A DNA stretch of 64,000 bases from Gemmatimonadota bacterium. Its GTDB lineage: Bacteria; Gemmatimonadota; Gemmatimonadetes; Gemmatimonadales; Gemmatimonadaceae. Under the pieces are notes generated by a model that was not told the DNA's origin, ran no database searches, and saw only the letters and a list, made by a program, of their open reading frames with translations. The DNA lies in NCBI GenBank assembly GCA_028287305.1, contig JAQBPX010000038.1, forward strand, positions 372,001 through 436,000, in the 5' to 3' direction. The position numbers and the translations under genes are program-made. Shown in pieces: positions 28,727-46,860 of the stretch (the stretch's first letter is position 1; each line of letters starts with the position of its first letter).

Positions 28727-29092
28727 ATGCGCATCGAGACCATCCCCCTGATCTTTGGCGTCATCCTCGCGATCCTCGGCATCGGGCTGGTCTTCGACGC
28801 CACCACGCCGGACGCGATCGTAGCCGCGGAGGAGCGCCGGAGGAAGCCGCGCTCGGAGCGCCATCGCAAGGGCGAGGGGATGGTCGGACTGGGCGTCATC
28901 TGCGCCGCCGCGGCCTTCCTGGGGCGAGACGCCTGGCGCTATGACACCATCGCCGTGATCGTGGGCGCCATCCTGATGCTCTGGGGGCTGTTGCTCAACA
29001 GGAAGCACCTGTCCGAGTGGCTCTCGAACCGAGGTGCCCTGCGCCGAGGCTACACCCCCAAGCCGCCGCGCACGCCCAAAACGCCCGTTTAG
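28727..29092 (+). CDS. Small membrane protein
   Basis: This 121-residue protein has three hydrophobic helices: IPLIFGVILAILGIGLVF (~5-22), MVGLGVICAAAAFLG (~52-66) and TIAVIVGAILMLWGLLL (~74-90). They are linked by a basic loop EERRRKPRSERHRKGEG, and the tail is proline- and lysine-rich. No family is recognised. It is the only plus-strand gene in this block and interrupts the otherwise minus-strand xerC/hslV neighbourhood. Confidence 0.72.
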   Translation: MRIETIPLIFGVILAILGIGLVFDATTPDAIVAAEERRRKPRSERHRKGEGMVGLGVICAAAAFLGRDAWRYDTIAVIVGAILMLWGLLLNRKHLSEWLSNRGALRRGYTPKPPRTPKTPV

Positions 29093-29132
29093 TTTCTTCC
29101 GGCGGAGCACTGGAACTACCGAACTGCCAACT

Positions 29133-29297
29133 GCCTTGAGCCACGGGTTGCACTGATCGCGCCTCTGGCGCGACAACACTGCAGTTCTATCCGCGCAAAA
29201 AGGCATCCTCTCGTCATTCGAGACGAAGCTTTGATTGCCACTACTGGCGTAACGGTGTCGCCGCCGAAGGCGGCCAGTGAAACCCGTGGCTCAAGGC
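29133..29297. repeat. Palindromic element, copy 1, with conserved cloverleaf plan
   Basis: The left arm 29133-29155 (core CTTGAGCCACGGGT) and the right arm 29275-29297 are inverted repeats matching at 22 of 23 positions. Just inside each arm is a separate hairpin: TCGCGCC-TCT-GGCGCGA (29157-29173) and GCCGCC-GAA-GGCGGC (29260-29274). Outside the right arm a further CAGTTTCAGTG-type segment extends to 29328. A second copy is at 46623-46735. No coding capacity is seen. Position is the 3' side of both flanking genes. Confidence 0.85.
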
Positions 29298-29344
29298 CGT
29301 TGCAGTTGCAGTCGAGGCAGTTTCAGTGCGGGCATGCGAACGAG

Positions 29345-30268
29345 CTACGCCCTCGGGTGCGCCTGCTGGTACACCTGCTTCAGCCGCTCCACCGACGTGT
29401 GCGTGTAGATCTGCGTCGTGCTCACCGACGCGTGGCCGAGCAGCTCCTGCACCGCGCGCAGGTCCGCGCCCGCATCCAGCAGGTGCGTCGCAAAGGTGTG
29501 GCGCAGCGAGTGCACGCTGAGGCCCGCGTCCTCATCCACCTGCGACAGGAACGCCGTCACCGACAGCTGCACCGCGCGCACCCCGATCCGCTTCCCCGTG
29601 CGCGCGAGAAAGAACGCGATGCGCTCCGGCTTCACGTCGCGCTCACCGAAGTGCCGGTCCCGCGCGGATTCATACTTCCGGAGCGCGAGCGTGGCCGTGT
29701 CGCCGATCGGCACGATGCGCTCCTTCCTCCCCTTCCCTCGCACCTTCACCTGCTGGCTCACCAGGTCCAGGTCCGCCCGGTTGATTCCCGCCAGCTCCGA
29801 CAGGCGCATTCCCGTCGAGTAGAACAGCTCGAGGATCGCGAGGTTGCGCACGTCGGGGAACTTCCCCTCCTGCGCCTTGAGCTCCGCCACCTGGAAGAGC
29901 AGGTCGATCTGCGCGCGGTCCAGGTATCCCGGCAGGTACTTCTCGAGCTTCGGCGCCTGCACCGCGCGCGCGGGGTTCGCGTCCACCACCTCGTTCAGGT
30001 GCAGCCAGCGATAGAAGCTGCGCAGCGCCGACAGCGTGCGCGACATCGAGCGCTTCGCGAGCCCCTTCCGCTGCAGGTGCGCCAGGAACCCGCGCATCGC
30101 AAGCCGGTCGATCCCCTGCCAGCTCCACTCGCCACCGCCGTAGTAGTGGCCGAGATATTCCACAAACTCCGACAGGTCGCGCGTGTACGCCACGATCGTG
30201 TTCGGCGAGACGTCCCGCTCCTTCGCCAGGTGCATGAGGTACTCCCGCACCTCATCGCCGTCGCTCAC
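29345..30268 (-). CDS. xerC: Tyrosine recombinase XerC/XerD
   Basis: This 307-residue recombinase resolves chromosome dimers at dif. The N-terminal SAM-like domain ([30 protein letters not shown]) is followed by the catalytic domain with Arg in [11 protein letters not shown], Lys in [33 protein letters not shown], and H/Tyr in [15 protein letters not shown]. The GTG start overlaps the trmFO stop. The order topA-trmFO-xerC-(hslV-hslU) is the conserved arrangement known from Firmicutes and others, so this is a housekeeping enzyme rather than a phage integrase. Confidence 0.95.
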
Positions 30269-31605
30269 CGCGGCGCACCCACCAGCGAGTGCGCATCCCG
30301 CCACTCGGTCATGGCCGCGAGCCCGCGCTCAGCCAGCCGCTCGCGCTTCACCTTCTTGTCCTTCACGCGCTCGTTCAGGTCGTCCATCAGCCCGAAGTTC
30401 GCGTTCATCGGCTGGAAGTGCTTCGGCGCCGCCTCGCGCAGGTAGCGATAGAGCGCGCCGAGCATGGTGGTCGGCGGCGGCACCACCGGCTCCTCACCCG
30501 CGAGCATGCGCGCGAGGTTGATCCCGGCGAGCAGGCCGGTCGCGGTGCTCTCGGTGTATCCCTCCACACCCGTGATCTGCCCCGCGAACAGCACCTGTGC
30601 ATCGCTCCTGAGCGAAAGGTGCGGCGTGAGCGCCGCTGGCGAGTTCACGTATGAGTTGCGATGGATGGAGCCGAAGCGCAGGAACTCCGCATTCTCGAGC
30701 CCCGGGATCATGCGGAACACGCGCTGCTGCTCGGGATAGCGCAGCCGCGTCTGGAACCCGACCAGGTTCCACATGCGACCGCCCTTGTCCTCCATGCGCA
30801 ACTGCACGATCGCATACGCCTCGCGCCCCGTGCGCGGGTCGCGCAGCCCCACCGGCTTCATGGGCCCGAAGCGGAGCGACTCGCGCCCGCGGCGCGCGAT
30901 CTCCTCCACCGGCATGCACCCCTCGAAGTACGGCACCTTGTCGAACTCGTGCGCCGTGGCCTGGTCGGCGACGCCGATCGCGTCGAGGAATCCCTCGTAC
31001 TGCTCTCGGCTCATGGGGCAATTGAGGTACGCGCCCTCGTCGCCCTCGCCGGGCATCGTCTCCTTGCCGTAGCGCGACGCGCGAAACACGACGTCGTGAT
31101 CCAGCGAGTCCACGTCCACGATCGGCGCGATCGCATCGTAGAACGCGAGCGACTCCACGCCCAGCCGCCCGCGAATCTCTTCCGCCAGCGCATCGCTCGT
31201 GAGCGGGCCGGTGGCGATGATTCCCGGACTCGGCAGCGTGACCGCCTCCTCGCGAACCACCGAGATGCGCGGGTGCTGCGTCACCCGCTCGTGCACCCCG
31301 CCCGAGAACACGTCGCGGTCCACGGTGAGCGCACTGCCGCCGGGGACGCGAGCGGCGTCGGCGCACTCCAGCACCATGGAGCCGAGCAGGCGCATCTCGG
31401 CCTTGAGCAAGCCGTGCGCGTTCGACACCTCCGTGCTCTTGAAGGTGTTGGAGCACACCAGCTCGGCCAGCTTGTCGGTCTTGTGCGCCTCGGTGCCGCG
31501 GACGCCGCGCATCTCGTGGAGCACCACGCTCACGCCGCGCTCCGCCAGCTGCCAGGCGGCCTCCGAGCCCGCGAGGCCGCCGCCGATGATGTGAACGGCC
31601 GTCAC
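30265..31605 (-). CDS. trmFO: Folate-dependent tRNA uridine-54 methyltransferase TrmFO
   Basis: This 446-residue flavoprotein makes m5U54 in tRNA using methylene-THF. The N-terminal FAD motif [21 protein letters not shown] is present, with [56 protein letters not shown] and [12 protein letters not shown], all family strings. The GTG start overlaps the topA stop and its stop overlaps the xerC start. It consumes the same methylene-THF pool that gcvT supplies. Confidence 0.97.
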
Positions 31606-46506: not shown

Positions 46507-46622
46507 GCGGGAACCTGTCGTCGTCTGGTGCCTGGTGCGGCACCGGAGTGTTGCGGGGTGGGGCGTGGTTACGCAGGTCGCTCGGTGTCGCCCACCAACT
46601 GAAACTGCCTCAACTGCAACTG

Positions 46623-46735
46623 ACTTGAGCCACGGGTCGCACTGGCGCCTGCTGCGCAGGCGCATCACTGCCATCACTGTCATCAGTGGGCAGTGTCAGC
46701 CGCGCAGCGGCTCAGTGCAACCCGTGGCTCAAGGC
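46623..46735. repeat. Palindromic element, copy 2, with conserved cloverleaf plan
   Basis: Left arm 46623-46644 and right arm 46713-46735 share the core CTTGAGCCACGGGT with copy 1; the right arm of copy 2, reversed, is identical to the left arm of copy 1. Inside each arm is a hairpin: GCGCCTGC-TGC-GCAGGCGC (46645-46663) and AGCCGC-GCA-GCGGCT (46698-46712). The hairpin positions agree with copy 1 while their sequences differ. Confidence 0.85.
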
Positions 46736-46768
46736 TGTTGCTGTTTGGTTGTTTCAGTGGCGGCGAAC

Positions 46769-46830
46769 GGCAGATCCTTCGCTGTCGCTCAGGATGACAG
46801 GGAGGATCCTTCGCTGTCGCTCAGGACGAC
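46769..46830. repeat. Two units of the CTCAGGATGAC dispersed repeat
   Basis: GGCAGATCCTTCGCTGTCGC-TCAGGATGAC followed by GGATCCTTCGCTGTCGCTCA-GGACGAC. The first unit matches 19088-19116 apart from small changes. It lies directly after the palindromic element and 30 bases before the pilin stop. Confidence 0.85.
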
Positions 46831-46860
46831 CTGGCGCCGGTGCGAAGCACCCGCGTCAGG

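Follow-up and report, generated by a model that had tools for sequence, protein, structure and literature searches.

Cloverleaf palindromes dispersed in a Gemmatimonadota genome and their possible mobilisation by GxxExxY proteins, a family of predicted nucleases

Two palindromes in the DNA of a Gemmatimonadota bacterium (assembly GCA_028287305.1, contig JAQBPX010000038.1, positions 372,001 to 436,000, a stretch of 64,000 nucleotides referred to here as the window) raise the question of what kind of element they represent, and of how hairpins that differ between copies come to be paired in each of them. A sequence-only reading had described a dispersed palindromic element with a cloverleaf plan and variable inner hairpins, and had proposed either a structured RNA or hairpin DNA moved by a REP-type (Y1) transposase. 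The description was borne out, and the element proved larger, with about 44 members in the genome. The motif CTTGAGCCACGGGT has four exact sites in the window, paired at 29135/29295 and 46624/46733, where 0.54 sites would be expected by chance with up to two mismatches allowed. These pairs confirm the arms of the copies first placed at 29133-29297 and 46623-46735; the true extents (Table 1) are longer than those because an outer arm pair (ACTGAAAC... / ...GTTTCAGT) prolongs the stem. Both copies are cloverleaf palindromes of about 160-220 bp, and when folded as single-stranded DNA they reached -61.8 kcal/mol (copy 1, z -7.4) and -70.0 kcal/mol (copy 2, z -12.0), with no shuffled sequence folding as well in either case. 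Either fold consists of one long stem bearing left, central and right hairpins, and the left and right hairpins pair in both copies in spite of their different sequences, as had been claimed.

Table 1. Features of the two copies in the window, the genes flanking copy 1, and the two GxxExxY genes found between arms of the same family elsewhere in the genome
Feature	Position	Strand	Basis or context
Element copy 1	29109..29328		~161-bp-core type with terminator, between convergent genes
Copy 1 left outer arm ACTGGAACTACCGAACTGCCAACTGC	29109..29134		Pairs with 29296-29328 in the fold; conserved among copies
Copy 1 left core arm CTTGAGCCACGGGTTGCACTG	29135..29155		CTTGAGCCACGGGT site search
Copy 1 left inner hairpin TCGCGCC-TCT-GGCGCGA	29157..29173		DNA fold and hairpin table
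Copy 1 central terminator-like hairpin (GCATCCTCTCGTC..GACGAAGCTTTG)	29203..29229		DNA fold
Copy 1 right inner hairpin GCCGCC-GAA-GGCGGC, GNA triloop	29260..29274		DNA fold and hairpin table
Copy 1 right core arm CAGTGAAACCCGTGGCTCAAG	29275..29295		CTTGAGCCACGGGT site search
Copy 1 right outer arm, ending in GTTTCAGTG	29296..29328		DNA fold and alignment of copies
Element copy 2	46598..46759		Between two minus-strand pilin-like genes
Copy 2 left outer arm ACTGAAACTGCCTCAACTGCAACTGA	46598..46623		DNA fold and alignment of copies
Copy 2 left core arm CTTGAGCCACGGGTCGCACTG	46624..46644		CTTGAGCCACGGGT site search
Copy 2 left inner hairpin GCGCCTGC-TGC-GCAGGCGC	46645..46663		DNA fold and hairpin table
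Copy 2 central stem CACTGCC..GGCAGTG, nested CACTG/CAGTG	46666..46695		DNA fold
Copy 2 right inner hairpin AGCCGC-GCA-GCGGCT, GNA triloop	46698..46712		DNA fold and hairpin table
Copy 2 right core arm CAGTGCAACCCGTGGCTCAAG	46713..46733		CTTGAGCCACGGGT site search
Copy 2 right outer arm GCTGTTGCTGTTTGGTTGTTTCAGTG	46734..46759		DNA fold and alignment of copies
121-codon ORF flanking copy 1	28727-29092	+	Convergent with recombinase gene
XerC/D-like recombinase gene flanking copy 1	29345-30304	-	Convergent with 121-codon ORF
GxxExxY gene L050	C12:190374		In central loop, between two hairpins
GxxExxY gene L052	C4:628541		In central loop, between two hairpins

Across the whole genome (G000, 4.37 Mb) the terminal inverted repeat (TIR) gave 66 matches at up to two mismatches, whereas its reversed control gave none, the number of elements being that of loci counted by eye. 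The commonest form is 151 bp in total; others have a 161-bp core and, in the central loop at the position of the terminator-like hairpin of copy 1, an A/T-flanked hairpin. A second subfamily, CTTGAGACACGGATTTCAC...GTGAAATCCGTGTCTCAAG, is separated from the first by a two-sided change. Each end is composed of an inverted arm of CACGGAT-like units with a mini-hairpin inside it. The sequence-only reading had named copies lacking hairpins, or fewer than a handful of copies, as evidence against itself; instead, 82 of the 83 real element ends carry a hairpin directly inside the arm. Four ends in the hairpin table had none, of which three were chance pattern matches and were excluded, leaving one (L239). 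The hairpins fall into 37 different sequences with stems of 5-8 bp, which vary in length and sequence from one subfamily to another, and about 31 are perfectly paired when the table is read by eye. In 24 of the 37 types the triloop on the strand leaving 3' outward is GCA, GAA or GTA (GNA) closed by C-G, and C(GNA)G triloops are unusually stable DNA mini-hairpins. The two ends of one copy usually differ in their stems and have the same kind of loop, with the GNA loops lying on opposite strands, a symmetry that fits an end-recognition signal on DNA.

The compensation that had been claimed for the hairpins holds between subfamilies only, since in the 151-bp subfamily, the commonest (15 copies with 94% identity), mutations are one-sided: cells counted on an RNAalifold structure, which is not exactly the cloverleaf, comprised 0 double, 27 one-sided and 18 unpaired. 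Covariation inside this subfamily was therefore rejected. The longest direct repeat at the ends of 23 copies averaged 3.65, against 3.75 for mismatched flanks, and thus gave no sign of target-site duplication. At up to two mismatches the TIR was absent from all 58 related genomes searched, so that the sequence family is limited to its own lineage among the genomes compared, and the copies in the window lack an empty-site counterpart. In three loci (L018, L030 and L037:2183-2333) the inner part stands in the opposite orientation, relative to the outer arms, to that in most copies, which suggests an inversion between the arms.

The Y1 transposase (RAYT) suggested earlier was rejected as the partner, there being no PF01797 match in the whole genome in a search that matched its positive controls, and none of the TIR pairs located there has a transposase inside it. 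The sole ORF found between arms of the family is a GxxExxY gene (TIGR04256/PDDEXK_3), which occurs there twice (L050 and L052), between the same arms as those of the ORF-less copies. The short copies thus resemble MITEs, which are likewise ORF-less and have terminal inverted repeats in common with a longer gene-bearing element, but they differ in having no target-site duplication, in the enclosed gene being no known transposase, and in their subterminal hairpins at both ends. Seven GxxExxY genes are present in the genome and only these two are within the family; since such elements take up roughly 0.6% of the genome, we estimate the chance of two out of seven falling there to be near 1e-3. Four of the other five (L046-L049) have inverted arms of other sequence, and the fifth (L051) has no inverted arms.

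Both proteins pass the cut-offs of the two profiles, with TIGR04256 scores of 101 and 111.5 bits (cut-off 35) and a PF13366 (PDDEXK_3) score of 113.8 (cut-off 22). Among 38 related proteins, E38, D77, E87, K89 and Q101 are invariant and Y105 is conserved in at least 90%. These residues match the PD-(D/E)XK plus QxxxY signature of the Cas4/RecB type, so that the catalytic motif is intact and nuclease activity is predicted. An AlphaFold2 model (pLDDT 90) found Cas4 SSO0001 (4.7e-5) and then Archaeoglobus Hjc (3e-3) as its top Foldseek matches. The TM-scores were moderate (0.4-0.6), Cas4 profiles match GxxExxY weakly and there are no sequence homologues among PDB structures; the predicted relation to Cas4 and Hjc is one of fold only. 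We know of no association of Cas4 or Hjc nucleases with dispersed palindromes. GxxExxY proteins go by a uniform name, but the openly accessible journal literature searched describes no function for them, and both GxxExxY and PF13366 are seldom mentioned there.

The linkage of gene and palindrome extends well beyond this genome. When the 350-400 bp before a GxxExxY gene were compared with the reverse complement of an equal length after it, inverted repeats were found to flank 30 of the 47 loci sampled across many phyla (above the 99th percentile of control positions, p<0.01) and 19 of 38 loci in the genome's own family (higher than all 2000 controls), about half of the loci in the latter set having no flanking repeats. 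The pairing is present in Chlamydiota, Verrucomicrobiota, Pseudomonadota and others, and the arms are built of units of 8-12 nt, such as ACAGGATTAACAGGATT, CACGGATGAACACGGAT and CACGGAGACACGGAG, with a period of 8-10. Phyla are only partly mixed in the GxxExxY tree (21 label changes, where the minimum is 10 and shuffling gives 30.3). At three loci (L212, L165 and L213) the flanking repeats include seemingly coding stretches or long unrelated palindromes. In G063 and its sister species G011, two palindromes of about 190 bp flank the GxxExxY gene, and each of these repeats has about 40 copies per genome. Alignment of their neighbourhoods showed several sites that are filled in one species and reduced to only ~20-65 bp in the other, besides shared sites; as the genomes are 75-80% identical, these sites are not base-precise and gain is not separable from loss. 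At one of these sites the repeat immediately adjoins the orthologous GxxExxY gene. The repeats therefore come and go and the gene, which is at an orthologous place in both species and need not move, stays, as in RAYT systems. The idea of REP-type hairpin DNA is thus upheld in the many copies, in the hairpins at nearly all ends and in the presence and absence of a homologous family between sister species, but not in its Y1/RAYT partner, in whose place GxxExxY was found.

The explanation we favour, which we put at even chances, is that the copies in the window are REPIN-like, non-autonomous, ORF-less members of a palindromic mobile family whose complete form carries GxxExxY, and that movement is driven by this nuclease. 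The complete element would have GxxExxY as its single gene, placed in the cloverleaf's central loop. In DNA that is single-stranded or supercoiled, the arms could extrude as a cruciform or cloverleaf, and GxxExxY, with its predicted PD-(D/E)XK active site and Cas4/Hjc-like fold, would recognise the arms and hairpins and cut at the junction. The freed fold-back DNA might then be copied in at another intergenic site during repair or replication. One arm would serve as the template for the other, and for this reason new copies would come out as nearly perfect palindromes irrespective of their sequence. We infer a mobilising role for GxxExxY in these elements, along with the cut site, the intermediate and the fold-back copying route.

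It could also be that the repeats are MITE- or REPIN-like sequences moved by a conventional transposase, now lost, unassembled or unrecognised, and that GxxExxY is passive cargo. We consider this rather unlikely. A case of cargo does exist: in genome G060 (L198-L204) a truncated GxxExxY with its own CACGGAG-type arms lies inside an ordinary IS-type MITE with the TIR TAGTGGGTCAGTTT/AAACTGACCCACTA, so that such a MITE can carry GxxExxY pieces. These repeats were rejected as internal-deletion derivatives of a GxxExxY element and, since they proved to be an ordinary MITE bearing a TIR of its own, are not counted as evidence. Moreover, RAYT genes are absent in some carriers of REPs, and CGTC repeats have no dedicated transposase (PMC3733652). 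Against this stand the lack in the genome of a Y1 gene or of any TIR pair enclosing a transposase, the absence of target duplications, and the pairing of gene and palindrome across so many phyla, which needs one explanation.

The palindromes of a Chlamydiota MAG (L079/G083) bear on how the arms are kept alike. It has one GxxExxY element of 766 bp, whose arms are common to about 35 ORF-less palindromes of ~221 bp. In 16 copies 98.2% of cells were paired (shuffled, 92.7), 28 pairs had changed on both sides (shuffled, 12.5), and double-changed cells numbered 88 (shuffled, 25.2); none of these values was reached in 500 shuffles, and slid controls were near zero. Because the shuffles do not keep the relatedness of the copies, the ratio between double and single changes carries more weight as an argument. 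Many of the changes are transversions (GC/UA, and AU/CG/UA at a single pair) and half-way states are few, a pattern that speaks for copying of one arm from the other and not for stepwise compensation. In several of these copies (L308-L327, outermost bases) the inverted repeat runs on into the flanks in sequence peculiar to each copy, which gives the impression that these copies were inserted in, or extended into, other palindromes. Two-sided changes with few intermediates are also the outcome to be expected if host replication errors, namely template switching and fold-back synthesis, amplified and perfected the palindromes, with GxxExxY acting as a resolvase that lives off or limits them. Template switching in quasipalindromes is documented (PMC7202029), and the Hjc-like fold would suit a resolvase. 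Template switching, however, perfects a palindrome in place and does not explain how about 40 unrelated sites came to have one sequence in common; we find this account improbable.

Selection on an RNA fold would give more G-U than A-C mismatches on the coding strand, but the counts were 60 and 65 in one set and 100 and 106 in the other, so that this test was neutral as to RNA-level selection on the arms. Together with the two-sided changes in the chlamydial family, the lack of G-U bias favours templating at the level of DNA over selection on RNA. That the elements are a conserved structured RNA or a bidirectional terminator kept for its RNA function, as the position of copy 1 between convergent genes, its central terminator-like hairpin and the A/T-flanked hairpins central in other 161-bp copies might suggest, is very doubtful in view of the missing G-U excess, the GNA loops on opposite strands at the two ends, and the absence of any Rfam match at the gathering threshold, by which a known RNA family was rejected. 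The central hairpin of copy 1 may have a side effect on transcription.

Returning to a mobile family served by GxxExxY, REPINs are the nearest described system. A clover fold has been proposed for them and they show compensatory spacer changes (PMC3116915), and both have counterparts here, as do the two inverted hairpin ends with a spacer, the intergenic location, the tens of copies, and a nuclease gene between or beside copies. The inverted hairpin doublet is the dispersed unit here also, with inverted pairs ~100-160 bp apart. The differences are that the genome has no Y1/HUH transposase, the associated gene instead encoding a PD-(D/E)XK nuclease, and that the arms are iterated CACGGAT-like units and the GNA triloop is conserved. 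In described REPs the tag is GTAG or CGTC, and RAYT genes are associated with the GTAG class alone (PMC3733652); by inspection neither tag is beside the hairpins in the aligned copies, which are bounded by CACTG/CACGG and ACACTG/ACACGG.

A second type of locus has a similar plan. The intervening sequences of 23S rRNA, from which IVP (S23) proteins are known, likewise have a palindromic stem whose loop holds one small gene. IVP proteins belong to another protein family, a four-helix bundle, and the element described here is not in rRNA. The genome has eight dispersed IVP (PF05635) genes (L132-L139), seven of them with inverted-repeat arms, as have 22 of 27 IVP genes in the family (L169-L197), and one IVP arm is also present at a few places where the gene is missing. 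The arms are mostly heptad tandem repeats, in contrast to the period of 8-10 in GxxExxY arms. Dispersed 23S_rRNA_IVP genes with their arms are a sister class of palindromic element. Since enzyme gene and scattered palindromes pair in other phyla too, GxxExxY may drive widespread mobile DNA. Tentatively, and short of an even chance in our judgement, GxxExxY proteins might be the enzymes that mobilise a class of inverted, hairpin-bearing palindromes widespread in bacteria, acting by a Cas4/Hjc-like cut of cruciforms and fold-back rebuilding and giving rise to dozens of ORF-less derivatives per genome, with IVP elements as a second class of the same plan. The chemistry so proposed would be that of none of the known transposase folds. 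In any event, an uncharacterised and widespread protein family is linked to dispersed palindromic repeats of the CACGGAT/ACAGGATT type that adjoin it in many bacteria, and the two-sided arm changes offer natural data on fold-back copying of DNA. The results bear on what moves palindromic families without RAYT, and on the role of GxxExxY and of IVP proteins, the latter still being described as functionally uncharacterised (PMC11270868).

A further palindromic repeat, GATCCYTCGCTNCGCTCAGGATGAC, has 112 copies in the genome, one location in the window being 46760-46834, and about half of the elements have it at a fixed distance on their ACTGAAACAACC side. We take this repeat to resemble the CGTC-type REPs.
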